DNA of 58,984 nucleotides, taken from assembly GCA_012519695.1 (NCBI GenBank), contig JAAYPT010000107.1, positions 1-58,984 on the forward strand. The letters run 5' to 3'. This document shows, in pieces, positions 197 through 58,984 of the stretch. The translations under genes and the position numbers were made by a program. The notes beneath the pieces were generated by a model. It saw nothing but the letters and a program-made list of their open reading frames with translations. It was not told the DNA's origin and did no database searches. The DNA is from Clostridiales bacterium (GTDB lineage: Bacteria > Bacillota > Clostridia > Lachnospirales > Lachnospiraceae). Within the stretch, counting starts at the first letter, position 1, and the number at the start of each line of letters is the position of its first letter.

Positions 197-1084
197 ATGT
201 ACCCAATCGTAAAAAAGAAAAAACTGGCTGATAAGATTTATCTTATGGAAGTAAAGGCACCACGCGTTGCTAAGTCTTGTCTGCCGGGAGAATTTGTAAT
301 TGTAAAAATGGATGAAGAAGGAGAACGTATCCCTCTTACAATTTGTGATTACAATCGAGAAGCAGGAACCATTACTATTGTATTCCAGACAGTAGGTGCT
401 TCTACAGAGAGAATGGTAAGTTTAGAAGAAGGAGATGCATTCCAGGATTTTGTAGGTCCTTTAGGATGTGCTTCTGAGTTAACTGAGACACCAATTGAAG
501 AATTAAAGAAAAAGAAAATTGTATTTATTGCCGGTGGTGTAGGTACAGCTCCGGTATATCCGCAGGTAAAATGGCTGCATGAAAATGGTGTAGACTGTGA
601 TGTTATCATGGGTTCTAAGACAAAGGACCTGTTGATTTTAGTAGATGAGATGGAAAAAGTAGCAGGAAATCTGTATGTAACAACCGATGACGGTTCTTAT
701 GGTTTCCACGGTATGGGAACCAATCAGTTAGAAGAACTGGTGAATGCAGGAAATAAATATGATTTATGTATTGCAATCGGACCTATGATTATGATGAAGT
801 TTGTCTGTCTGCTTACAAAGAAATTAGAGATTCCAACCGTTGTTTCCCTGAACCCAATTATGGTAGACGGAACCGGAATGTGTGGAGCATGTCGTGTAAC
901 TGTTGGCGGAGAAGTGAAGTTTGCCTGTGTTGATGGCCCGGAATTTGATGGACATAAGGTAGATTTTGATCAGGCAATGAAACGTCAGCAGATGTATAAG
1001 ACAGAAGAAGGAAGAGCCATGTTAAAATTACAGGAAGGTGATACACATCACGGTGGCTGTGGACATTGCGGAGGTGACAAATAA
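197..1084 (+). CDS. nfnA: NfnA-type ferredoxin-NADP+ reductase subunit (sulfide/dihydroorotate dehydrogenase-like FAD/NAD-binding protein)
   Basis: 295 aa. Small subunit of the NfnAB NADH-dependent reduced ferredoxin:NADP+ oxidoreductase, a cytosolic flavin-based electron-bifurcating enzyme that links NADH, NADPH and ferredoxin in anaerobes. An FAD-binding beta-barrel motif (RIPLT, about residues 44-48) is followed by an NAD(P)-binding Rossmann segment (GGVGTAP, 113-119) and a C-terminal [2Fe-2S] region (CGAC at 229-232, then FAC ending at 244). The tail HHGGCGHCGG is cysteine- and glycine-rich. A good GGAGG lies ahead of ATG 197. The stop overlaps the nfnB start by one base, so translation is coupled. 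Without nfnB beside it, PyrK-like or hydrogenase-gamma-like roles would have to be considered. Confidence 0.9.
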   Translation: MYPIVKKKKLADKIYLMEVKAPRVAKSCLPGEFVIVKMDEEGERIPLTICDYNREAGTITIVFQTVGASTERMVSLEEGDAFQDFVGPLGCASELTETPIEELKKKKIVFIAGGVGTAPVYPQVKWLHENGVDCDVIMGSKTKDLLILVDEMEKVAGNLYVTTDDGSYGFHGMGTNQLEELVNAGNKYDLCIAIGPMIMMKFVCLLTKKLEIPTVVSLNPIMVDGTGMCGACRVTVGGEVKFACVDGPEFDGHKVDFDQAMKRQQMYKTEEGRAMLKLQEGDTHHGGCGHCGGDK

Positions 1085-16457: not shown

Positions 16458-19112
16458 GTGAAAAAATATGGAGTAAATGAATTGCGTAGAATGTATTTGG
16501 AATTTTTTGAAAGCAAAGATCATCTCGCAATGAAAAGTTTTTCACTTGTACCGCATAATGATAACAGTTTGTTATTAATTAATGCAGGAATGGCACCTTT
16601 AAAGCCATATTTTACAGGTCAGGAGATACCACCAAAGAGACGTGTAACTACATGTCAGAAGTGTATCAGAACCGGAGATATTGAAAATGTAGGAAAGACA
16701 GCAAGACATCTTACCTTCTTTGAAATGCTTGGAAACTTTTCCTTTGGAGATTATTTTAAGCATGAGGCAATTGCCTGGTCTTGGGAGTTCCTTACCAAAG
16801 TGGTAGGTATGGAGCCGGAACGTTTATATCCATCTATTTATGGAGAAGACGAAGAAGCATTTGAAATCTGGACAAAGGAAATCGGAGTACCGGCTGAGAA
16901 AATCACACGTTTCTATCGTGATGAAAACGGAGAGTGTGATAACTTCTGGGAGCATGGTGCAGGCCCTTGTGGTCCATGTTCCGAGATTTATTATGACCGT
17001 GGAGAAAAATACGGCTGTGGTAGTCCGGATTGTAAAGTTGGTTGCGAATGTGACCGTTTCATGGAAGTTTGGAATAACGTATTTACTCAGTTTAATGGTG
17101 ATGGTCATGGACATTATGAAGAACTTGCAAATAAAAATATTGATACCGGTATGGGATTGGAACGTCTTGCAGTAGTAGTACAGGATGTTGGTTCTGTTTT
17201 TGATATTGATACGATGAAGGCAATTCGTGATAAAGTCTGTGCAATCAGTGGCAAGGCTTATCAGGTAGACGCAATGGATGATGTTTCCATTCGTTTGATT
17301 ACAGATCATATTCGTTCTACTACCTTTATGATTTCTGACGGAATTATGCCATCCAATGAAGGAAGAGGATATGTACTGCGTCGTTTGATTCGTCGTGCAG
17401 CACGTCACGGAAGATTATTGGGCATTAATGGTAAATTCTTAGCAGACTTAAGTGCAACAGTTATCGCAGAAAGTAAGGACGGATATCCAGAGTTAGAAGA
17501 AAAGAAAGAGTTTATTTTCAAGGTATTATCTCAGGAAGAAGAAAAGTTTGACAAGACCATTGATCAGGGACTTTCCATTCTCTCTGAAATGCAGGAAGAA
17601 TTGAAAAAGACAGGAGCAAAAGTGCTGTCAGGAGAAAATGCATTTAAGCTCTATGATACTTATGGATTCCCTATGGATTTAACACAGGAAATCTTAGAAG
17701 AACAAGGATTTACCATTGATGAAGAAGGTTTCCAAAAGTGCATGGACGAGCAGAGAAATAAAGCAAGAAGTGCAAGAAAAGAAACCAACTACATGGGAGC
17801 AGATGCAACGGTTTACGATGAAATCGATACAGCAATCACTTCCGAGTTTGTAGGCTATGATAGATTAACACATACTTCTAAAATCAGTGTACTTACAACT
17901 GAAACAGAGTTGACAGAGGCTTTATCTGACGGAGATAAGGGAACCATTATTGTAGATGAGACACCATTCTATGCTACCATGGGTGGTCAGAATGCCGATA
18001 CAGGTGTGATTCGTGCCGGAGAAAGCGAATTTAAGGTAGAAGATACCATTCATTTGCGTGGTGGAAGAATCGGACATGTTGGAACTGTAACTAAGGGAAT
18101 GTTTAAAGTAGGAGATAGTGTAGAACTTTCCGTAGATGCAGAAAAACGTGCTTTGATTGGAAGAAACCACAGTGCAACACATTTACTTCAGCGTGCTCTT
18201 CGTGAAGTATTGGGAAGTCATGTAGAACAGCATGGTTCTGATGTAAACGAAGACAGATTGCGTTTCGACTTTTCACATTTTGCAGCAGTGACTCCAGAAG
18301 AAATTGCACAGGTAGAAAAGATTGTAAATGCCAAGATTGCAGAGGCTATTCCGGTTGTTACAGAGGTTATGTCCTTAGAGGAAGCGAAGAAAACAGGAGC
18401 AATGGCACTGTTTGGTGAAAAATACGGAGAAAGTGTTCGCGTTGTAAAAATGGGTGATTTCTCCATAGAACTTTGTGGTGGTACTCATGTGGCAAATACA
18501 GGAAGTATCGGAGCATTTAAGATTATTTCTGAGTCCGGTGTAGCAGCAGGTGTAAGACGTATTGAAGCTTTAACTTCAAAAGCTGTATTTGAATATTATG
18601 ACAAATTAGAAGAAACAATAAATGAAGCAGCTAAGATTGCTAAGACGAATCCGGCAGGATTGGTAGAAAAATTAGAGCATTTAGTAGCAGAAATGAAAGA
18701 ACTTCAAAGCGAAAATGAATCCTTAAAGAGCAAGGTTGCAAAAGATGCACTTGGTGATGTTATGAATCAGGTTGTAGAAGTAAATGGTGTAAAACTTCTT
18801 GCTGCAAGTGTATCTGGTGTAGATATGAATGGACTGCGTGATTTGGGTGACCAGTTAAAAGAAAAACTTGGCGAGGGTGTTGTTGTATTAGCATCTGATT
18901 TAGAAGGAAAAGTAAATCTGGTAGCTATGGCAACAGATGACGCTATGAAGAAAGGTGCTCATGCAGGTAACTTAATCAAAGCCATTGCAGGAAAAGTCGG
19001 TGGTGGCGGCGGTGGACGTCCAAACATGGCACAGGCTGGAGGTAAGAATCCGGCAGGTATTCCGGACGCTATTGCTGAGGCAAAAGTAGCATTAGAAGGA
19101 CAGATAAAATAA
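16458..19112 (+). CDS. alaS: Alanyl-tRNA synthetase
   Basis: 884 aa, normal length. Class II catalytic core at the N-terminus (NELRRMYLEFFESKDH, PLKPYFTG), editing domain with zinc ligands HSATH and CGGTH, and a C-terminal DHHA1 domain ending in a glycine-rich KVGGGGGGRPNMAQAGG. GTG 16458 is preferred: GGAGGA ends 7 bases upstream and the protein then starts MKKYGVNELRR. An in-frame TTG 16443 lies within the ribosome binding site. Confidence 0.97.
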   Translation: MKKYGVNELRRMYLEFFESKDHLAMKSFSLVPHNDNSLLLINAGMAPLKPYFTGQEIPPKRRVTTCQKCIRTGDIENVGKTARHLTFFEMLGNFSFGDYFKHEAIAWSWEFLTKVVGMEPERLYPSIYGEDEEAFEIWTKEIGVPAEKITRFYRDENGECDNFWEHGAGPCGPCSEIYYDRGEKYGCGSPDCKVGCECDRFMEVWNNVFTQFNGDGHGHYEELANKNIDTGMGLERLAVVVQDVGSVFDIDTMKAIRDKVCAISGKAYQVDAMDDVSIRLITDHIRSTTFMISDGIMPSNEGRGYVLRRLIRRAARHGRLLGINGKFLADLSATVIAESKDGYPELEEKKEFIFKVLSQEEEKFDKTIDQGLSILSEMQEELKKTGAKVLSGENAFKLYDTYGFPMDLTQEILEEQGFTIDEEGFQKCMDEQRNKARSARKETNYMGADATVYDEIDTAITSEFVGYDRLTHTSKISVLTTETELTEALSDGDKGTIIVDETPFYATMGGQNADTGVIRAGESEFKVEDTIHLRGGRIGHVGTVTKGMFKVGDSVELSVDAEKRALIGRNHSATHLLQRALREVLGSHVEQHGSDVNEDRLRFDFSHFAAVTPEEIAQVEKIVNAKIAEAIPVVTEVMSLEEAKKTGAMALFGEKYGESVRVVKMGDFSIELCGGTHVANTGSIGAFKIISESGVAAGVRRIEALTSKAVFEYYDKLEETINEAAKIAKTNPAGLVEKLEHLVAEMKELQSENESLKSKVAKDALGDVMNQVVEVNGVKLLAASVSGVDMNGLRDLGDQLKEKLGEGVVVLASDLEGKVNLVAMATDDAMKKGAHAGNLIKAIAGKVGGGGGGRPNMAQAGGKNPAGIPDAIAEAKVALEGQIK

Positions 19113-51141: not shown

Positions 51142-51549
51142 TTATCTACAATCGAATGCTGGATTGGCAGCATAGAAGTTTTTAGAATCTAATTGATCCT
51201 GTACAATGCGCAGTCCTTCTCCGAAACGTTGGAAATGTACAATTTCCCGGGCGCGTAAGAAACGAATCGGATCAGCAACTTCAGGGTCTTTTACCAGACG
51301 AAGAATGTTATCGTAGGTGCTGCGGGCTTTTTGTTCCGCCGCAAGGTCTTCAAATAAGTCTGTAATTGGATCACCTTTAGACTGGAATTCACATGCATTG
51401 AAAGGAATACCACCGGCAGCCTGCGGCCACAGGGCGAGAGTGTGATCTACATAGTATTTATCGAAACCGGAAGCTTTGATTTCTTCCGGAGTCAGGTCCT
51501 TAGTTAGCTGATAGACGATAGTAGACACCATCTCGAGGTGTGCTAGCTC
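51142..51549 (-). pseudogene. cotJC: C-terminal part of interrupted cotJC (manganese-catalase-like spore coat protein)
   Basis: The reading frame from ELAHLEM to the stop is CotJC-like: metal-ligand motifs ELAHLE and REIVHFQRFGE, plus PFNACEFQSKGDPI and EDLAAEQKARSTYDNIL. A full CotJC has about 50-60 more residues before the (T)EELAHLE motif. Here the frame upstream of ELAHLE reads H-P-C-T-Y and then meets a stop at 51565-51567, with no ribosome binding site or start. The missing N-terminal part must lie beyond the right edge of the window if the element is excisable. Confidence 0.85.
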
Positions 51550-51576
51550 GTATGTACACGGATGTTATCCATAATA
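51550..51576. other. Probable attachment-site junction of the element
   Basis: The 27 bases between the cotJC Glu codon (51547-51549) and the recombinase stop codon (51577-51579) must contain the crossover point. Related genes encode G-T-E-E-L-A; the frame here reads C-T-Y-E-L-A, so the core may include GTACA (complement of 51553-51558). The other half-site is outside the window. Confidence 0.6.
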
Positions 51577-53193
51577 TTAAACTGGCTTGATTTTAGGATA
51601 AACATCAAGGGTAAAGAGCACTTCATCCACATTTCCACGCTTGTTCTTGATGTTCTTAGTATATACAATTTTATCTATCAATTCCTTGAGAGAAGTATTT
51701 TTCTCGACAGGAGAGAGAGAATCATAGCTTGCCAGCAACGTTTCACACTTAGGGATGAATTCGTTTCTCTCCTTGATTTTGCGAGACAGCACTTCATAAT
51801 CTGTAACAACTGTGTCCAAGGATGCAGTTGCCTCTTTTAAATCATTTTCTAATTTTCCCATACGTTCTGTAAATACTGTTTCGGTATAAATGCCACGCTC
51901 AAGGAAATCAAACAATTTCTCACGTCTGGAGGAAATATCGTCAACTGCTTTTTGCTTGGCTTCCATGATAGCACGCTTGCTTTCTAAGGCGTTATTGCTT
52001 ATTTTTTCGGTTGGAAGCTGGTATTTATATCCGTCACAAATTTCTGCCAGGGAGCGAAGAACTTCTTTCTCTACTTTATCCAAATAGTCAGAAATAGAGG
52101 GGCAGCCACGAGTGGGACAGATAAAGGAGGCTTCCTTGCCAGCTTGCTTGTATGGCTTCCTTTGCATTGGAGCACCGCAAACGGAACAGAAAACGAGTCC
52201 GGCAAGAGGGTTCCGCTGGGAGTGTTGAGCACCTACGGGTATACAGGGATTCTCATTTCGTATTTGCTCCGCTTGATTAAACAATTCTACACTTATAATG
52301 GGTTCGTGCAGTCCTTTGCAGAGCTCGTGCTCTGCATTGACAGGGCGAGAAACCTTTACTACGCCGTTTTCAATTCGTTTAACAGATTTTCGGTGATTCC
52401 AGCGCAAGTAACCGCAATAAACAGGGTTAGCAAGAAGCCCACGCAAACTGCTTATGGTCCATTTTCCACCGCCACGAGTGTGGAGATTACGTTCGTTTAA
52501 GTAATCTGCAATACGCTGCATACCGTAGCGCATAGAAGTTTTTCCGTCTCCGTTTATATATAAGTCAAAGGCTAGCTTTACAATAGCGGCTTCCTCCGGT
52601 ACAGGCTCTAAAGTAAATCCGGTATCTTCTTTAAGGCGTACACGCTTATAACCAAACGGAGGGATGTTGCCAACGTATTTTCCATCCTGAACAGAACGTA
52701 AGCGTCCACGGTTCAAACGACGTTTTATAGTTTTGTATTCCCTTCTACTCATAAATAAGCCAAACTCAAAGTATTCCTCATCGTATTCGTCAGAAGGATC
52801 ATATATCTTGAGAGGTGTCACAATAAGAGTATCGGAAAAACGGAAAGAACGTGATACGCGTCCTTGGTCTATCGTATCACCACGGGCAAGACGTTCAACT
52901 TCCATGACAAATACACCATCCCAGATGCCGGCATCAACATCTTTTAATAAATTGCACATTTCCGGTCTGGAATCTATGGAATCACCGGAGACAACTTCTT
53001 CGTAAAATTTTGAAATAACAACTCCGTAACGGTGAGAAAGTTCCAAGAGTGTTTCCCTGTGACGTTTTAAAACATCATATCCACTGGAATGTTCTGCCTC
53101 CATATCATCACGGGACTTACGGAGATAAGCGCAGTAAGACCCGGAAGTATCAAGAGGAGAAGAAGAGTTATAATTTTTCTTTTCAGAAATCAT
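51577..53193 (-). CDS. Large serine recombinase
   Basis: 538 aa. Resolvase/invertase catalytic domain at the N-terminus (Ser in YLRKSRDD, about residue 28; later ERLARGD), recombinase domain (about 180-300), a zinc-ribbon (CSVCGAPMQRKP...CPTRGCP, about 335-370) and a C-terminal coiled coil (about 400-500). It integrates and excises the element by site-specific recombination. ATG 53193 is used; in-frame TTG 53199 would add two residues. Translation seems coupled to the 22-codon ORF at 53183-53251. Confidence 0.93.
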   Translation of the reverse strand: MISEKKNYNSSSPLDTSGSYCAYLRKSRDDMEAEHSSGYDVLKRHRETLLELSHRYGVVISKFYEEVVSGDSIDSRPEMCNLLKDVDAGIWDGVFVMEVERLARGDTIDQGRVSRSFRFSDTLIVTPLKIYDPSDEYDEEYFEFGLFMSRREYKTIKRRLNRGRLRSVQDGKYVGNIPPFGYKRVRLKEDTGFTLEPVPEEAAIVKLAFDLYINGDGKTSMRYGMQRIADYLNERNLHTRGGGKWTISSLRGLLANPVYCGYLRWNHRKSVKRIENGVVKVSRPVNAEHELCKGLHEPIISVELFNQAEQIRNENPCIPVGAQHSQRNPLAGLVFCSVCGAPMQRKPYKQAGKEASFICPTRGCPSISDYLDKVEKEVLRSLAEICDGYKYQLPTEKISNNALESKRAIMEAKQKAVDDISSRREKLFDFLERGIYTETVFTERMGKLENDLKEATASLDTVVTDYEVLSRKIKERNEFIPKCETLLASYDSLSPVEKNTSLKELIDKIVYTKNIKNKRGNVDEVLFTLDVYPKIKPV

Positions 53194-53251
53194 AAGCAAA
53201 TACCTCGCTTAGTGCATACCAATTTTTTTTATAAGTGATTCCTGATAACAT
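53183..53251 (-). CDS. 22-codon leader ORF overlapping the recombinase start
   Basis: A near-perfect AAGGAGG lies 8 bases before ATG 53251. The ORF encodes MLSGITYKKNWYALSEVFAYDF and stops at 53183-53185, eight bases inside the recombinase gene, in another frame. Ribosomes ending here could restart at ATG 53193. A translated leader or a genuine microprotein. Confidence 0.5.
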   Translation of the reverse strand: MLSGITYKKNWYALSEVFAYDF

Positions 53252-53564
53252 ATAAACAACCTCCTTAATAAAAAATAGTAAGACTAGAATCATCATTAGC
53301 CTTACAGATAGTGTCATAATATCAAGAAATACGCATAAAATCAATATGCATAAATGCAATACATGTAGAATAACTACATGAGAATAAAAATGAATTTATT
53401 ATTATACCACAAAGTCAAAATAAATAGAATGAGCTTATGTGCAAAAACGTAAATGTGCAAAAAAAGTGTTCAGCATACCGAACAAAGTTTGTGTTATATT
53501 TACACTATCAAAGGAAGTACTTCTGGAAAAACTAAATACAAAAAGAGAAAGTTGGGACCAGAAG
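53194..53564. other. Divergent regulatory region between recombinase and XRE gene
   Basis: Apart from the 22-codon ORF (53183-53251) I see no gene. It holds the recombinase promoter (53316-53344), an ATACGCAT motif at 53329-53336 and a TGTTC/GAACA inverted repeat near 53467-53484 ahead of the XRE gene. Confidence 0.6.
53316..53344 (-). promoter_or_regulatory. Promoter of the recombinase, with ATACGCAT motif
   Basis: On the minus strand TTGATT (53344-53339) and TATTAT (53321-53316) have a 17-base spacer. ATACGCAT/ATGCGTAT (53329-53336) lies within the spacer and recurs twice in the promoter at 53979-54008. Confidence 0.6.
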
Positions 53565-53759
53565 ATGAAAAACAGATTGAGCGAAATACGCTGGAGAAAG
53601 GGATGGAGCCAGGCGGCTCTTGCACGTCGTTCTGGAGTGGCAAAAACTACAATATGTGAAATAGAAAATGGAAATATTAGCAATCCCAGTGTGGAAATAG
53701 CATATAAGTTATCTAAAGCATTAAATGTAGATGTGTGGGAAATATTTTATATAGAATAG
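53565..53759 (+). CDS. XRE-family HTH regulator
   Basis: 64 aa, a single Cro/CI-type HTH (LSEIRWRKGWSQAALARRSGVAKTTICEIENGNISNPS) and helix 5. ATG 53565 gives a normal start; its ribosome binding site (GGGA) is weak, and the frame is open upstream without a better site. Candidate controller of the recombinase promoter and of the 54-kb promoter. Confidence 0.85.
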   Translation: MKNRLSEIRWRKGWSQAALARRSGVAKTTICEIENGNISNPSVEIAYKLSKALNVDVWEIFYIE

Positions 53760-53779
53760 GAAAAGCGGGAGAAAAGAGT

Positions 53780-53908
53780 ATGGAATACAAAAGAGTTATT
53801 ATCAAGTTGCTGGAAGGAATGGAAGAAGAAAAGGAAGAGGAGTTTTTAAAAGTGTTGTATACAATTATAATTAGACATGTGATAAGAAATGATAAAAGTA
53901 CGATTTAA
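53780..53908 (+). CDS. Small unknown protein, 42 aa
   Basis: ATG 53780 follows GCGGGAGAAAAG, 20 bases after the XRE gene. The product has a Glu-rich centre (EGMEEEKEEEFLKVL) and a basic end. It is likely co-transcribed with the regulator. Small Glu-rich proteins beside XRE genes are common on clostridial mobile elements; no function can be given. Confidence 0.5.
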   Translation: MEYKRVIIKLLEGMEEEKEEEFLKVLYTIIIRHVIRNDKSTI

Positions 53909-53971
53909 AACCATTTTTAGTGTTAATAGTAGTAGATATACTATTAGTATAGAACATATTAAAAAATATTG

Positions 53972-54008
53972 ATACGCATTGACTTTTGGGGAAGATAATG
54001 CGTATAAT
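53972..54008 (+). promoter_or_regulatory. Promoter with inverted-repeat operator
   Basis: TTGACT (53979-53984) and TATAAT (54003-54008), 18-base spacing. TACGCATT (53973-53980) and AATGCGTA (53997-54004) are perfect inverted arms that overlap the two boxes, 16 bases apart. Confidence 0.7.
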
Positions 54009-54135
54009 AGGATTGTGAAAAGATGTGAAAATAATATGTATCTGAGGTAATGTGAAAAAAGTACATAGAAACAAAAAGTAATAGTGTGTTAATTATTTAG
54101 AATGGGCATACTCTTAATATATAGGAGGTGTGCCA

Positions 54136-54156
54136 ATGAAAAAAAGGAGTGTATAG
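54136..54156 (+). other. Six-codon uORF (MKKRSV) before the 54-kb gene
   Basis: AGGAGGTG sits 7-8 bases before ATG 54136. The six codons include the AAGGAG that serves the next start, ATG 54158, one base after the uORF stop. Confidence 0.4.
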
Positions 54157-54157
54157 T

Positions 54158-54349
54158 ATGTACGGAACAAGAGAGAGTGGAAAAATGAATTTTTATATGA
54201 CACCACAAAAAGAATATAAGATCCATCAGCAAATTCAAGTACAGTATACAATTTCAAAGAATGTTGGAAAAGGTATAACTAATCAAATGAGTAATTGCGT
54301 AAGAGAAATGGTTCATTTTATATCAGCAGGGTTGGAAATGAAGGGATAA
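54158..54349 (+). CDS. Small unknown protein, 63 aa
   Basis: ATG 54158 is 8 bases after AAGGAG. The sequence (MYGTRESGKMNFYMTPQKEYKI... ISKNVGKGITNQMSNCVREMVHFISAGLEMKG) is soluble and unlike any family I recognise. It is first after the operator-bearing promoter, 8 bases before the next gene. Confidence 0.55.
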   Translation: MYGTRESGKMNFYMTPQKEYKIHQQIQVQYTISKNVGKGITNQMSNCVREMVHFISAGLEMKG

Positions 54350-54357
54350 GGTAATTT

Positions 54358-54839
54358 ATGAAAGAAGAAAATAAAATTGAAGAAAAAACTGTTAAGAAAG
54401 TAAGTGATGGTGGAGAAAAAGAGAAAGTTAAAAAAGAACCTGAAGAAGAAATAGAAGAAATTCCGGAAGAATTGCACGAAGTTCTTGAAAGTGTTCCACC
54501 AAAACAGAGAAAGGTAATAGAAAGGTCCTTGATGACCATTCAGATGGCAGGAAATATAGCATCTCCGGAGTCTGCTGTTATGAAGAAGATAACAGAGGAG
54601 CATATAACTGAATATTTAGAAGGCGCTAGAGAAGAGATGCGTAATTCTTATGAAGAAAGAAAAAGCAATAGATGGTTTTTACTAGCAGTTGTTATAGCTT
54701 CCATGATTTTTTTGTTGTAATTATTTTGATTCTAAAGGATAATCCTAATATAATGGAAAAAGTAATATATACCTTAGGAGGAGTAATTGCAGGAGCATTT
54801 GGAGGATATGGAATAGGTAAGAATAAACGTGAAGAATAA
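54358..54839 (+). CDS. Membrane protein probably completed by a -1 frameshift
   Basis: The zero frame (54358-54720) gives 120 aa: charged N-terminus, then a first transmembrane helix RWFLLAVVIASMIFLL and a stop. At 54708-54714 the bases T-TTT-TTG form a slippery heptamer. A -1 slip there continues in frame to 54839 as VVIILILKDNPN...GGVIAGAFGGYGIGKNKREE, giving about 160 aa with a longer hydrophobic region and a second membrane segment. The second part has no ribosome binding site of its own at ATG 54753. Alternatives are a mutation or an indel error in a T7 run. The shape resembles DUF2335-like membrane proteins (tentative). Confidence 0.55.
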
Positions 54840-54847
54840 AGTGAAAA

Positions 54848-54861
54848 TTGCACTGGTGCAA
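54848..54861. repeat. Palindrome TTGCACTGGTGCAA, copy 1
   Basis: A near-perfect palindrome within GAAAATTGCACTGGTGCAA (54843-54861). The same 19 bases with one change (C for T) recur at 58954-58972. Confidence 0.6.
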
Positions 54862-54910
54862 TAAAAAAAGAAAGAAAAGGAGTAATCCTTCTCTTTCTTT
54901 TTTTATTGCA
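54857..54910. terminator. Bidirectional terminator with 19-base arms
   Basis: TGCAATAAAAAAAGAAAGA (54857-54875) and its exact complement (54892-54910) enclose a short loop with an AAGG/CCTT extension. A and T runs at both ends suit the converging genes. Confidence 0.85.
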
Positions 54911-54932
54911 AATTACTTGCTGGATTTTTAGA

Positions 54933-55559
54933 TTATTCTAAGCCGAATTGAGCCTTAGACATAACCTTGCCTTCCGAAAAGGTTATGGTTGCATTTGAAC
55001 CAAGGGAAGTTCCATTCCATTGATAAACTTGTGCTGTAGAACCGGAGATATCTGTATCAGACAATAAAGAACCTTCTCCACCAAGAAGATTTACAACATC
55101 ATCATAGGACATACCAGTTTCTATAGAATTATATTGTTCTATAGAAATTTCTACATCATCCCCGGAAGAGACTCCAAACTGAGCTTTGTTTATTACTTTG
55201 TCGTCTTGAAAAGTAACAGTAGCATTTCCCCATCCATCAGAGGCGGTCCATTGGTACATCACTGTTTTAGTACCGGCAACATCTGATTCAGAAATGTTTT
55301 CACCATCTTGACCAATGATGTTTTTAACCTCTTCATAGCTCATACCGTTTTGGATGCTGTCAAACTTTTCTTCGTTGATACCGGCTGATTCTTTTGCAGA
55401 ATTGTTGTTGCTGGATGAGGTGCTTTCAGATTTTTTACCGGATGACTTTTTGCTATCCTTTGAATTTCCACCTCCGACAGCAGCGATAACAACAATAACA
55501 ATAATTGCAATTATCACCCATTTGAGTTTTCCACCTTTTTTCTTTCCTTGCTTTGACAT
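54933..55559 (-). CDS. Membrane-anchored protein with two tandem DUF3862/BLIP-like repeats
   Basis: 208 aa. Lys-rich start, one transmembrane helix (about 14-30), Ser/Lys/Asn linker (about 31-60), then two homologous domains of about 65-70 residues: NGMSYEEVKNIIGQDG...YQWTASDGWGNATVTFQDDKVINKAQFG (about 71-133) and TGMSYDDVVNLLGGEG...YQWNGTSLGSNATITFSEGKVMSKAQFG (about 145-207). The fold family (SmpA/BLIP-like) is used for protein binding. Extracytoplasmic. AAGGAGG precedes the ATG. Confidence 0.8.
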   Translation of the reverse strand: MSKQGKKKGGKLKWVIIAIIVIVVIAAVGGGNSKDSKKSSGKKSESTSSSNNNSAKESAGINEEKFDSIQNGMSYEEVKNIIGQDGENISESDVAGTKTVMYQWTASDGWGNATVTFQDDKVINKAQFGVSSGDDVEISIEQYNSIETGMSYDDVVNLLGGEGSLLSDTDISGSTAQVYQWNGTSLGSNATITFSEGKVMSKAQFGLE

Positions 55560-55680
55560 TTTACAAGTCCTCCTTTAAATTTTTATTAGCCTAATGGCTT
55601 GTGGATGTTTAGAACAACTAAAACTACCACAAAACGACATAAAAGAACATGATATTCTATGAAATTCTAAAAAAATATAA

Positions 55681-55718
55681 AAAAAGAAAGCCGATAATCC
55701 CTATCAGCTTTCTTTTTT
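55681..55718 (-). terminator. Terminator of the toxin-antitoxin/HTH operon
   Basis: AAAAAGAAAGC and GCTTTCTTTTT form a stem with extra GATA/TATC pairing; it overlaps the HTH stop codon. Confidence 0.7.
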
Positions 55719-56108
55719 GTCTTTCAAATTGTGCAGCAGTTGCTTGCAATAAGAAGCAATGATTTTTTGATTCTCCGGTGTGAGTTGATTAAAAGTACGC
55801 ATGGTTTCTAAGATGATGTCAAAAAGGGGATTGTTCCTTTCTTCGATTAACTGTGAAACCCAAATACCAACTTCGTCCTCAGGTGGCAATTCTACAAACA
55901 TTTTATCTGTACCGGTACGAAGCCATTCCTCATTTACAAAATTGCCATTCCAATTAATATTGCAAATAAGTTTTATCATTCGGTCCGTAACAGAACTTTT
56001 CCCGTTTTCTATGAGACTTAATGTAGCCTTTTTCATACCGAGAATTTCACCAAACTTATCCAATGTCAAACCAAGAGTTTTTCTCAATTCTCTAATTCGT
56101 TCATTCAT
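55704..56108 (-). CDS. XRE-family HTH protein linked to the toxin-antitoxin operon
   Basis: 134 aa. N-terminal Cro/CI HTH (RIRELRKTLGLTLDKFGEILGMKKATLSLIENGKSSVTDR) and a C-terminal helical region of about 60 residues. The start at 56108 overlaps the antitoxin stop by 4 bases. Typical of short phage/ICE regulators (LRTGTDKMF motif). It may regulate the upstream toxin-antitoxin genes. Confidence 0.85.
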   Translation of the reverse strand: MNERIRELRKTLGLTLDKFGEILGMKKATLSLIENGKSSVTDRMIKLICNINWNGNFVNEEWLRTGTDKMFVELPPEDEVGIWVSQLIEERNNPLFDIILETMRTFNQLTPENQKIIASYCKQLLHNLKDKKES

Positions 56109-56335
56109 AAACCAAGCTCCTTTAAGGCATCTTCGCTGGAAAGAAACTCTTTGCAATCGGAGCTCTTGGAAATGTCATCCAGCATTTTTAAATCCCATTC
56201 ATCAGGAGCTACCTCCTCAATGTTTTCCCAAAAGTCGGAAGAAAAGTGGCTGCGAATGTAGTTCCAAACGTTTTCCGCATCTGCTTCTCCCATAACACAT
56301 ACAGCACCTAAAATTCGTTCTTTAACTGCGCTCAT
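56105..56335 (-). CDS. Probable antitoxin partner of RelE-like toxin
   Basis: 76 aa, acidic. AGGAGG lies before ATG 56335. No recognised DNA-binding motif; C-terminal DEWDLKMLDDISKSSDCKEFLSSEDALKELGL is like the flexible toxin-binding tail of RelB-type antitoxins. It follows the toxin gene by 10 bases. Assignment rests on position. Confidence 0.6.
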   Translation of the reverse strand: MSAVKERILGAVCVMGEADAENVWNYIRSHFSSDFWENIEEVAPDEWDLKMLDDISKSSDCKEFLSSEDALKELGL

Positions 56336-56345
56336 AATGCACCTC

Positions 56346-56576
56346 CTAATAATATACTTGTCCACGACTGTCAATTTTCTCAATATACAGAATATTCCCG
56401 CTTTTATCAAATATGATGCGGTAATCACCTACACGCAAACGGTAGCCTTGTCTTCCTTGAAGCTTTTTCACATCACCGGAAGGAAGAAGATTGATAGCGT
56501 TGATTATGCGCTTTCGTGTAGTTATATCCTGCTTTTTCAGAAATTTAACAGCTTGCTTTGAATATTGGATTTCCAT
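56346..56576 (-). CDS. RelE/ParE-family toxin
   Basis: 76 aa. KFLKKQDITTRKRIINAINLLP, KKLQGRQGYRLRVGDYRIIFD and the strand ILYIEKIDSRGQVYY are the RelE fold with the basic/aromatic residues of an mRNA interferase. AAGGAGA precedes the ATG. Order toxin-antitoxin-HTH. A bacteriostatic ribosome-dependent endonuclease is the family role. Confidence 0.85.
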   Translation of the reverse strand: MEIQYSKQAVKFLKKQDITTRKRIINAINLLPSGDVKKLQGRQGYRLRVGDYRIIFDKSGNILYIEKIDSRGQVYY

Positions 56577-56659
56577 AAAGTTCTCCTTTCCTTACATGCA
56601 TATCATATCATCCGAAATAGTGGAAGTCAATAAAAAAGTTTAAAAAACAAACAAAAGCA

Positions 56660-56688
56660 TTGACAAAGTTTAAAAATCATATTATCAT
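56660..56688 (+). promoter_or_regulatory. Promoter of the 56.7-kb genes with GTTTA motifs
   Basis: TTGACA (56660-56665) and TATCAT (56683-56688), 17-base spacing, in the divergent region with relE. AAGTTTAAAAA occurs near 56637 and again near 56666, and GTTTATAAATC near 56689, which may be repressor sites. Confidence 0.65.
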
Positions 56689-56721
56689 GTTTATAAATCA
56701 AACAGAAAGCGAGGTGAGAAG

Positions 56722-56931
56722 ATGGTAAAAGGACCTTTTGAAAAACAGATTGTATCGCATGAAATAAGAAATACACATGCAACAGTTACAGTAACAGGAA
56801 CAGAAAAAGATTATGAAAAAGCAAAAGAGGTTATCAGAAAAGCGGTACGCGTATATAACCACTTTTCTGATAACAAAATGAGTTTTGAAGTTAGATTGAT
56901 TAGGCGGAAAAAACCCAAAGAAAATTTATAG
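56722..56931 (+). CDS. Small unknown protein, 69 aa
   Basis: AAGCGAGGTGAGAAG lies before ATG 56722. Alternating strand/helix pattern (HATVTVTGTEKDYEKAKEVIRKAVRVYNHFSDNKMSFEVRLIRRKKP) and basic C-terminus. No family recognised. Diverges from the toxin operon. Confidence 0.65.
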   Translation: MVKGPFEKQIVSHEIRNTHATVTVTGTEKDYEKAKEVIRKAVRVYNHFSDNKMSFEVRLIRRKKPKENL

Positions 56932-56948
56932 AAGGAGAGGTGAGAGGT

Positions 56949-57134
56949 ATGAGTGAAAAGGAACCACTGGAATTAACTTTAGAAGATGGAACACTGACAT
57001 TAGGAAGTGAAAAGTTACGTTACGTAGAAAAATATACAATAGAAGTCAGTTCTACATTACAAAAAGGAAAAGCAGAACTGACATTAAAAATGCTGGTCAA
57101 TTTTTCTGATAATAGGCAAGAGCGCAATCCTTAG
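56949..57134 (+). CDS. Small unknown protein, 61 aa
   Basis: ATG 56949 is about 8 bases after AAGGAGAGG; an in-frame GTG at 56940 lies in that site. Beta-rich (LELTLEDGTLTLGSEKLRYVEKYTIEVS...ELTLKMLVNFS). Its last 38 bases overlap the end of the converging DUF2513 gene. Confidence 0.55.
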   Translation: MSEKEPLELTLEDGTLTLGSEKLRYVEKYTIEVSSTLQKGKAELTLKMLVNFSDNRQERNP

Positions 57135-57462
57135 CAAGCTCAATCAAGATTGGAAGAGAAGCAGAACCTTTTGACTTTATTTTTTTCCAAACTGTATCAG
57201 TACGTATGTTTGCTAAAAACTCATGACCTGTGGGTGTCAGATCAGAAACAAGTATGGATATACCCCTGTCATAATAGTGAGGAGTTGTTATGAGTCCGGA
57301 CTGAGACATTTGTGAAATGTGATAAATAATTTCATCATGTGAGTAATTAATTAAAAAATTAGAATCACAAGAATCTTTGGAATACATCCAAGAATGATTA
57401 AAGTCACAAGAATCTTCTATTGTTAGAAGAATATCGCGAATACAATTAGTATTTAAACGCAT
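57097..57462 (-). CDS. DUF2513-like protein
   Basis: 121 aa. MRLNTNCIRDILLTIEDSC, YHISQMSQSGLI and VSDLTPTGHEFLANIRTDTVWKKIK match the small winged-helix-like DUF2513 proteins common on mobile elements. ATG 57462 leaves a leader of about 25 bases from the promoter in the 33-base repeat; ATG 57480 would leave almost none. Confidence 0.8.
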   Translation of the reverse strand: MRLNTNCIRDILLTIEDSCDFNHSWMYSKDSCDSNFLINYSHDEIIYHISQMSQSGLITTPHYYDRGISILVSDLTPTGHEFLANIRTDTVWKKIKSKGSASLPILIELAKDCALAYYQKN

Positions 57463-57491
57463 ATAATCACAACCTTTCATTATTTGATAAG

Positions 57492-57524
57492 GAGATTATA
57501 GCATAACAAGAAAATTAAAGAAAG
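57492..57524 (-). promoter_or_regulatory. 33-base repeat with extended -10 promoter, copy 1 (DUF2513)
   Basis: Identical over 33 bases to 58487-58519. On the minus strand it contains TGCTATAAT, an extended -10, about 10 bases from the predicted start of transcription of the DUF2513 gene. Confidence 0.7.
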
Positions 57525-57711
57525 TTTGGAGGAATTTTTTAACAAGGTTATAAAGATCCATTAAAAAGCTGAATAAGGTAATCATTTCCCATAGAGACCT
57601 TCGCACACACCTCCTTTCTATAAAAAAATGGAGTTGCGAAGGCAACATATAAATACTAGCACAGTCAAAATAATTATTCAAATTATAATGCGACAAAAGC
57701 GAGGTGAGAAG

Positions 57712-57909
57712 ATGGAAAATAGAAAGACATATATGAATCTAGCACTGAGTACAGGAAAGATTTTGAAAGGAGAAAAAATCCGTGAACTTGTTAATTTTAT
57801 AGTTAATAAGTTCGCGGAAGAAAACATAAGCAGAGATGAAGCGTATCAGGTGTTGGAGGAAGTGAAAGAAGTAGTAGGGGAAGTGGCTATTGTACAACAC
57901 ATTGATTAG
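57712..57909 (+). CDS. Small unknown helical protein, 65 aa
   Basis: ATG 57712 follows AAGCGAGGTGAGAAG. Charged, helical, with KIRELVNFIVNKFAEENISRDEAYQVLEEVKEVV. No family recognised. Its stop overlaps by four bases the end of the converging 177-aa gene. Confidence 0.65.
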   Translation: MENRKTYMNLALSTGKILKGEKIRELVNFIVNKFAEENISRDEAYQVLEEVKEVVGEVAIVQHID

Positions 57910-58439
57910 AGATTTTTTTGAAGCATTTCCTGCAATGTATAAGAAATATTGCGAAGTATATAATTTTTGTCCTCAGATTTACTTACAGGCATACTAGTGG
58001 CAGATTTCAAATTAACAACATACTTTTCACAATATTTTTTGCCGGAAGAATAGTATTCAAGATAAAAAGTTATAGGATCTACAATCTTGTCATATCGAAG
58101 CTGGCATATATGAGAATGACCGGGAGCAATAGAACAATGAGATAAATCTTTTAAAAAGTCTCGGGCAGGTGAAATGTAACAGTCAGAAAAATCGAAGTCT
58201 GTTTCAAACTTAGTTATTGTTGCAAGTGAGTTGCCAAAATTCTTTACGACCATATAAAAGGAAGGCGTACCGGGATTGATTGATTCTCCATATATACAAA
58301 TGATGGCACGGGTAGATTCCTCAATCATCTTGGAATTTTGATGAGCGGTGATTATTGAAATAATGATTGCAACTGTGCTTGTAAGTAATGATACAGAAAT
58401 ACCAATTATTTGAAGAATATCAGACGTTTGTAGATTCAT
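57906..58439 (-). CDS. Membrane-anchored unknown protein, 177 aa
   Basis: One N-terminal transmembrane helix (about 9-31), then a beta-rich extracytoplasmic or cytosolic domain (IICIYGESINPGTPSFYMVVKNFGNSLATITKF...). AAAGGAG precedes ATG 58439. Similar 'TM plus Ig-like' proteins occur on clostridial prophages and plasmids. Driven by the second copy of the 33-base promoter repeat. Confidence 0.7.
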   Translation of the reverse strand: MNLQTSDILQIIGISVSLLTSTVAIIISIITAHQNSKMIEESTRAIICIYGESINPGTPSFYMVVKNFGNSLATITKFETDFDFSDCYISPARDFLKDLSHCSIAPGHSHICQLRYDKIVDPITFYLEYYSSGKKYCEKYVVNLKSATSMPVSKSEDKNYILRNISYTLQEMLQKNL

Positions 58440-58486
58440 AAAAAATCTCCTTTTGTAAGTACTTGGCTTTTAGTAAAGCCTGTAAA

Positions 58487-58519
58487 GAGATTATAGCATA
58501 ACAAGAAAATTAAAGAAAG
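58487..58519 (-). promoter_or_regulatory. 33-base repeat with extended -10 promoter, copy 2 (177-aa gene)
   Basis: Same 33 bases as 57492-57524, about 48 bases upstream of the 58439 start on the minus strand. The plus-strand ribosome binding region AAAGCGAGGTGAG follows directly. Confidence 0.7.
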
Positions 58520-58532
58520 CGAGGTGAGAAAT

Positions 58533-58688
58533 ATGACAGTACAGGAAAAAGAAATGTTTGAGGAAACAGTAAAGAACTTGGCAATGCTGGACCGTGATAG
58601 TGCTTTAATGGTAAATGCTGCAACAACAGCGTTACTGATGAAACAGACGGCAGAAGAAATGGCGAAAAAGGATATTCCGGCAGCGTAG
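58533..58688 (+). CDS. Small unknown protein, 51 aa
   Basis: GCGAGGTGAG lies before ATG 58533. The product is helical (MTVQEKEMFEETVKNLAMLDRDSALMVNAATTALLMKQTAEEMAKKD). It resembles small Ala/Met-rich proteins of clostridial phages. Function unknown. Confidence 0.6.
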   Translation: MTVQEKEMFEETVKNLAMLDRDSALMVNAATTALLMKQTAEEMAKKDIPAA

Positions 58689-58741
58689 GAAAGAAGTACA
58701 AACCGTAAAGCATACATATTAAAAGATAGGAGGTGGTTCCA

Positions 58742-58918
58742 ATGGCTGTAATAATGGAGCTGAATGGTGGGAAAATCAGAATACATGACGATTCCATGGT
58801 AAAGACAAAAGAGGAAAACGATAGAATTATCGAACGAGTAAGTCAAATTATGATAAATGCAGAATTTAGAAGAATGAAGGAAGAAGAAAAGAAACGAGAA
58901 AAGGAAGGAACCGCCTGA
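58742..58918 (+). CDS. Small unknown protein, 58 aa
   Basis: ATG 58742 follows AGGAGGTGG. A short strand-rich start (MAVIMELNGGKIRIHDDSM) is followed by a charged helix with a Lys/Glu-rich end. Unknown function. Confidence 0.6.
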   Translation: MAVIMELNGGKIRIHDDSMVKTKEENDRIIERVSQIMINAEFRRMKEEEKKREKEGTA

Positions 58919-58943
58919 GAGGCGGTAGGAAGGACAAGCAATT

Positions 58944-58984
58944 ATGAGAAAAAGAAAATTGCACCGGTGCAAATACAAGAAAAA
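58944..58984 (+). CDS. Start of a further small gene (runs off the window)
   Basis: AGGAAGGA lies about 10 bases before ATG 58944; the first residues are MRKRKLHRCKYKK. The reading frame is open to the edge. It contains palindrome copy 2. Confidence 0.35.
   Translation, partial: MRKRKLHRCKYKK
58959..58972. repeat. Palindrome TTGCACCGGTGCAA, copy 2
   Basis: Perfect 14-base palindrome within GAAAATTGCACCGGTGCAA (58954-58972), 18 of 19 bases identical to 54843-54861. Confidence 0.65.

Follow-up and report, generated by a model that had tools for sequence, protein, structure and literature searches.

A prophage carrying a large serine recombinase (LSR) interrupts the coat gene cotJC of a Clostridiales bacterium of the family Lachnospiraceae at a codon of the metal-ligand motif; both halves of the gene are present in the draft genome, and a precise join restores CotJC. 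The stretch of DNA analysed here (58,984 nucleotides, hereafter the window) is the complete contig C55 of that draft (G000; 3.16 Mb, 111 contigs); G, L and C numbers denote genomes, loci and contigs, respectively. Genome comparison showed that relatives carry other LSR elements in cotJC. The best explanation, which we infer and regard as fairly probable, is that excision in the mother cell restores CotJC. The splitting of cotJC by other elements in many relatives suggests, without proving it, that the pieces are rejoined at spore formation.

Both halves of cotJC and the sites of recombination

The C-terminal part of CotJC in the window (Table 1) matches PF05067 with an E value of 3.9e-24, starting at profile position 64, and its frame opens with the codons GAG CTA GCA CAC CTC GAG, or ELAHLE, a type of motif that we take to be metal ligands of Mn catalases. 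Translation of the window places an in-frame TAA six codons 5' of ELAHLE with zero start codons in between, and the LSR gene, ending at 51577, leaves a gap of 27 bases to the GAG. The initial annotation had described just such a frame, broken immediately before ELAHLE, with an upstream stop, no start and the LSR ending 27 bases away, and all of this held. The exact break point could be refined, since GAG is present at both ends of the element and the restored run reads ...GTEELAHLE. The window, a whole contig, ends inside the element, and the N-terminal cotJC piece lies on another contig.

A PF05067 search of the same genome gave exactly two matches, the window piece and an N-terminal piece at positions 488-688 (+) of C66 (profile 1-68, E 3.1e-19), and no further CotJC match was found in the draft with this profile. 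Two of the conditions set in the initial annotation came out in its favor: an N-terminal fragment exists that has the GAG core and joins in frame, and the draft gave no second CotJC match that would make excision unnecessary. C66 (6,592 bases) carries cotJA, cotJB (names that we presume from position and likeness) and cotJC up to ...LLTDIGTEE, followed by phage genes on the opposite strand. When the flanks are joined at the shared GAG they give an unbroken CotJC of 199 aa, and when the ends of the element are joined they give an attP-like site whose centre is GA and in whose arms 16 of 22 bases are palindromic. Because the joined flanks read as one 199-aa protein and only 5 of 20,000 shuffles equal the symmetry of the site, the fit is more than chance. 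In the related genome G418, whose LSR is 75% identical to that of the window, the break point is the same and so are the arms, TTATGGATAACA and TGTTATCCATAA; the joined element ends are less symmetrical than in G000, with 100 of 20,000 shuffles reaching their score.

The ends of the element stand on separate contigs, among the 111 of the draft, and have no 20-mer in common, as would be expected if C55 and C66 were unrelated and had been brought together by an assembly or binning artefact. The same split architecture stands on single contigs in six other genomes (G399, G400, G402, G403, G409 and G420), and G418 has the same arms with a related LSR, which makes an artefact extremely improbable.

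Recurrence of split cotJC in the genus and family

CotJC pieces were surveyed in 29 genomes of the genus, G000 included. Seventeen of the 29 have the gene in two or three pieces, and seven have it whole. Thirteen genomes, G000 among them, have two pieces at about codon 65, two have three pieces (G400, G402), two are cut only near codon 175 (G403, G423) and three have a single detected kind of piece (G406, G411, G416); no match was found in G412 and G419 in this survey. Three classes of break can be distinguished. In class A (G000, G418) the break is at GAG. In class B, of which 13 genomes have both halves, it lies about eight bases further upstream, and the arms are TGGAACATT and AATGTTCCA, whose attP-like symmetry is matched by 1 of 20,000 shuffles. 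Class C breaks within TTCGGTGAAG near codon 175. The LSRs of the three classes are 22-26% identical to one another over long alignments. Of these 13 class-B genomes, 10 have the class-B LSR (LSR_B; at least 79% identity) and G415 has a piece of it at a contig edge; it was not found in G413 and G417. Among the seven genomes with a whole gene it occurs in G398 only, elsewhere in the genome and in two pieces about 64 kb apart (C12:670907-671752 and 735433-736293). Where both ends are on one contig, class-B elements span about 18-80 kb. Among IMG/VR relatives, none of five class-A loci and two of 21 class-B loci (L177, L180) have a cotJC piece.

Two further observations concern class B. In G176 (L114), a whole cotJC is followed 16.4 kb downstream by a class-B attR remnant (C4:77038-77631 and 94055-94159), perhaps an escape from the split state. 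AbiEi/AbiEii-type toxin-antitoxin genes lie near class-B attR in L128 (12977-14502), L105 (5853-7408) and L138 (17964-18572); the pair in L128 was identified by Pfam (AbiEii strong, AbiEi slightly below the cut-off) and those in L105 and L138 by eye.

Class-B elements give the C part in-frame, ATG-led open reading frames (ORFs) of 154-163 aa, as might be expected if the cotJC halves functioned as separate polypeptides. In class A, a stop precedes the motif of the C part by six codons and no start codon intervenes; moreover, the split presumably divides the metal site, and three-piece genes exist. Separate function of the halves is therefore highly unlikely.

In the family, 244 of 397 genomes have a CotJC match. 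Eighty were re-searched, picked mostly for weak or partial best matches, with only some of such genomes taken; the counts that follow are from the matches listed. By the author's reading, 50 of the 80 contain tiling cotJC pieces, with breaks at about codon 30 (n=14), 65 (n=27), 137 (n=4) and 172 (n=1). Three of the 27 genomes with a codon-65 break carry a second cut near 172 (G262, G349, G364), and the remaining four of the 50 have three or more pieces (G059, G111, G173, G194). A fourth type of LSR is found in the codon-30 elements, and a fifth in the codon-137 element of G273; in comparisons with the first three types, each showed 22-29% identity. Five LSR types thus occur at four places in cotJC, which, by these comparisons, is a hotspot for LSR elements.

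Several of the elements are merely 2-4 kb long. The G256 element (about 2.4 kb) consists of an LSR and a 136-aa ORF, and the class-C element of G400 (about 2.8 kb) of an LSR and a ParE-type toxin. That of G259 (about 2.5 kb) has an r1t-type holin beside the LSR, which marks it as a prophage remnant. The class-C elements of G349 (tested) and G364 (by eye) pair the LSR with a chemoreceptor-like protein. In G253, which is outside the 80, one cotJC contains two small elements in a span of about 7.3 kb, and the genome has a whole cotJC elsewhere. The G350 element (about 1.6 kb) encodes a Spo0A_C protein of the stand-alone type (E 4.7e-31), and its LSR is missing the 3' part and continues into cotJC. 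In G060, two cotJC C-parts lie 3.1 kb apart (C68:14663-15091 and 18203-18631), as if two element ends stood in tandem.

Spo0A_C proteins, either stand-alone or full Spo0A paralogues, were also noticed in or beside cotJC elements at L092:934-1269, L170:3762-4274, L157:1262-2068 and L163. Among 70 re-searched family genomes, such a protein stands beside a cotJC piece in G350, G253, G030 and G348, the last two having full Spo0A paralogues; in G150 it lies 5.7 kb from the piece. A stand-alone Spo0A_C protein as a general feature of cotJC elements was rejected, none being found within the cotJC elements of the genus.

Relatives of the window LSR (LSR_A type) may have a second target. Among 46 such loci, which include the window and some duplicates, 16 adjoin cotJC pieces, and at 11 of the remaining 30 a LysM-GH18 gene appears to be interrupted within the catalytic domain, leaving C parts (L036, L059, L061, L063, L067, L074, L075, L080) or N parts (L072, L073, L093). 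Eight of these 11 were tested by Pfam; seven gave a match to part of Glyco_hydro_18 and the eighth to LysM alone. No NCBIfam name scored over the cut-off for this gene, which we liken to YaaH/SleL. In Bacillus, YaaH/SleL is a mother-cell gene.

Taken together, it is about an even call whether cotJC is an intron-like target throughout the family. On that reading, five LSR types would use four places, some three-piece copies would need two excisions, some elements would have shrunk to little beyond the recombinase, and DNA-binding proteins of the Spo0A type, carried by a few, could couple excision to sporulation. With the LysM-GH18 gene as a second spore-type target of relatives of the window LSR, this family of recombinases may favor genes that serve the mother cell, which is doomed.

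Proposed excision in the mother cell, and plain lysogeny as a rival

Under the proposed mechanism, a temperate prophage would have integrated into cotJC by its own LSR. In the mother cell, the probable site of cotJC use, the LSR and a directionality factor would excise the element; CotJC would be made there, and the spore chromosome would keep the element. Because the mother cell dies, such excision would be free of cost to the element, which would explain the presence of many separate elements in one catalytic coat gene. The initial annotation had proposed a sporulation-excised element. The LSR split, the other half, the restored frame, the lack of a second CotJC match in the draft, an unsplit sigK and the recurrence speak for it; the part of the proposal that concerns the mother cell fared less well, with no restored junction or circle in the assembly and sigma-E/K matches at chance. 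Also in favor are the symmetrical attP, the arms conserved in G418, and the occurrence of the class-B LSR in 10 of 13 split class-B genomes against one broken copy among seven whole-gene genomes.

The region upstream of cotJA was examined in 18 relatives against what we take to be the sigma-K consensus. In 11 of them it has a -10 of the sigma-K type (CATAnnnTA) with an AC-type -35; it is off consensus in G418 and unreadable in six, through short sequence or a misplaced start. The cotJ operon is therefore probably used in the mother cell. Broken sporulation genes are not general in these drafts, since sigK scores above its curated cut-off in 27 of the 29 genomes of the genus, G000 included, and Spo0A_C is above the cut-off in 27 of 29 genus and 69 of 70 family genomes. 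Among LSR_A-type loci, an upstream match to the sigma-E/K consensus was found in 5 of 16 cotJC-linked loci vs 3 of 30 others (Fisher p 0.105). A small ORF (...MRLTVTNIYP...ARLYQIFKKYA) lies 5' of the LSR in four of five class-C loci examined, with ATA-N17-CATA upstream; it was not seen in the fifth, L160, and its start codon reads ATA in the G400 copy. This ORF, seen in class C only, is a candidate directionality factor. None was seen in the visible parts of class-A elements, nor was one found among the ORFs common to the G000 and G418 elements.

Alternatively, plain lysogeny could account for the element: cotJC would be a convenient, dispensable attB, and the prophage would knock the gene out and leave only on induction, with no tie to sporulation. 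We consider this a lesser possibility, and a serious one. The gene content is phage-like, and integration here is possible without developmental control. Several findings weigh against excision in the mother cell. A pattern covering all four junction types found attL and attR only in the G000 assembly, with no restored junction or circle. The visible element has one match each to the sigma-E and sigma-K consensus on the window side (0.61 and 1.43 expected) and none on C66, and this lack of a mother-cell promoter signal suits lysogeny. Moreover, C66 begins at cotJA, so that the cotJA promoter of G000 lies outside the visible sequence. A sigma-E/K promoter beside the window LSR was considered and rejected as not above chance in the visible element. 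The missing promoter is not decisive and raises no contradiction, given that the prophage SPbeta expresses its integrase at all times and has its mother-cell promoter on sprB (PMC4191935; here and below, published systems are cited from excerpts of the papers). Other findings on the same side are that the LSR of G348 reads just 289 aa and that the G350 element, having lost attR, should not be excisable; both cotJC halves of G350 are still clean despite the loss of attR and of the 3' part of the LSR, as plain lysogeny would allow. In Clostridioides difficile, insertion mutants of a cotJC-type gene have less catalase activity and no significant coat defect (PMC11222575), so cotJC may be dispensable, as lysogeny supposes.

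No internal stops were found in the translated cotJC parts (24 N-parts, codons 1-60, and 23 C-parts, codons 68-178, whole genes included; then 13 C-parts and 6 N-parts). The ratio of nonsynonymous to synonymous differences per site (pN/pS) is 0.050 for class-B split genes (78 pairs), 0.030 for class A (one pair) and 0.058 for whole genes (10 pairs). Clean halves at low pN/pS argue against plain lysogeny. However, LSR_B is 99-100% identical among G399, G407, G420 and G421, so the insertions may be young and clean halves weak evidence; with LSR_B near-identical between some species whose cotJC has diverged, low pN/pS is no proof of use after insertion, and horizontal spread of LSR_B speaks for lysogeny. 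The class-B LSR as an old, vertically kept element was rejected for these four genomes. G030 and G348 have a Spo0A paralogue beside attL in common, and between them the element genes have a pS of 0.68-0.69, the host cotJB 0.60, and the cotJC N-part a pN/pS of 0.07 over 65 codons. This pair suggests long persistence of an element in cotJC, which lysogeny would not lead one to expect; two separate insertions of related elements would be another explanation. Also unfavorable to lysogeny are the several LSR types at four places in one mother-cell-type gene and the retention of the LSR in small elements.

The element and its place among known systems

Judged by the gene content of its visible ends, the element is a temperate prophage. 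The window LSR has resolvase, recombinase and zinc-ribbon domains (Pfam). Dorea phage DO134P1 carries an LSR relative at 41% identity. The phage genes that follow cotJC on C66, on the opposite strand, encode a Rha antirepressor, an amidase endolysin and a holin, together with a protein whose tail match is weak (Pfam, PHROG). Integrase and repressor thus stand at one end and lysis genes at the other, the tail assignment being weak. As far as they are visible, the elements of G000 and G418 have in common the LSR, the regulator, a weakly alike second helix-turn-helix (HTH) protein and a small ORF; the visible G418 genes are plasmid- or island-like by eye. A RelE-like toxin (by eye) and a partner ORF without a Pfam or PHROG match lie at 56105-56428 and 56346-56576 (-) of the window.

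Table 1. Features of the interrupted gene and the prophage in the window
Feature	Position	Strand	Basis
cotJC 3' part: shared GAG codon, LAHLE onward to natural stop	51142..51549	-	PF05067, translation
GAG common to both ends, crossover core; central dinucleotide GA by attP symmetry	51547..51549	-	Joins; one degenerate pattern matches attL and attR
Element-side attR arm with GGATAACA; partner TGTTATCC on C66	51549..51575	-	Same arms in G418
LSR of class A; 540 aa if read from the listed TTG, with an ATG six bases further in	51577..53199	-	Pfam PF00239, PF07508, PF13408; PHROG integrase E 5.5e-100
Inverted repeat GTTC-N8-GAAC between LSR and divergent regulator; candidate operator	53468..53483	.	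By eye; present in L058 too
Cro/CI-type regulator divergent from LSR (listed ORF 53439-53759)	53565..53759	+	Pfam/PHROG; homologue beside G418 LSR
Prophage cargo, DUF3862/BLIP-like secreted-type protein	54933..55559	-	Pfam/PHROG
Second HTH regulator	55704..56156	-	Pfam/PHROG
Phage protein of unknown function, phrog_9607	57906..58439	-	PHROG
Small ORF common to G418 element, 80% over 44 aa	58733..58918	+	Comparison of elements

The excerpt of one study lists sigK, spsM, spoVFB and gerE as interrupted sporulation genes, in addition to its own yabG (PMC10747680); no report of a split cotJC was seen among the open-licence PMC papers that the searches listed, 15 of 87 in one case. If distant recombinases hit one coat gene repeatedly, in over half of the genomes of a genus and across many genera of the family, such scattered cases would become a testable rule, namely that mobile DNA is safe in genes that only a doomed cell uses. 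The cotJC elements also provide a natural collection of LSRs paired with att sites, in which the empty sites can be read.

The closest parallel is SPbeta in spsM of Bacillus subtilis, likewise an LSR prophage in a sporulation gene that precise excision restores; there, mother-cell excision has been shown and the factor is SprB, whereas for the cotJC element, of which only the ends are visible, excision is inferred (PMC4191935). The skin element also divides a mother-cell gene by means of an LSR, but its target, in B. subtilis and C. difficile, is sigK, and cotJC hosts many LSR types and places (PMC5025042). The gin element in gerE of Bacillus cereus has several serine recombinases and is non-phage, like the elements of G418 and class B and the small ones; it differs in having three recombinases in 28.6 kb, against a single LSR in the 2-4 kb of each small cotJC element, with two elements per gene possible (PMC5595907). 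In Clostridium botulinum, yin is an LSR prophage-like element in a sporulation gene, but that gene is yabG, and yin is described as unique to one strain (PMC10747680). The attR of prophage phi027 of C. difficile R20291 adjoins a CotJC-like catalase gene; unlike cotJC here, that gene is not described in the excerpt as split or restored, and two other paralogues exist (PMC11222575). Finally, the elements in heterocyst genes of cyanobacteria are similarly excised from genes of a terminally differentiated cell, although the organisms, genes and cell type are different (PMC4874684).

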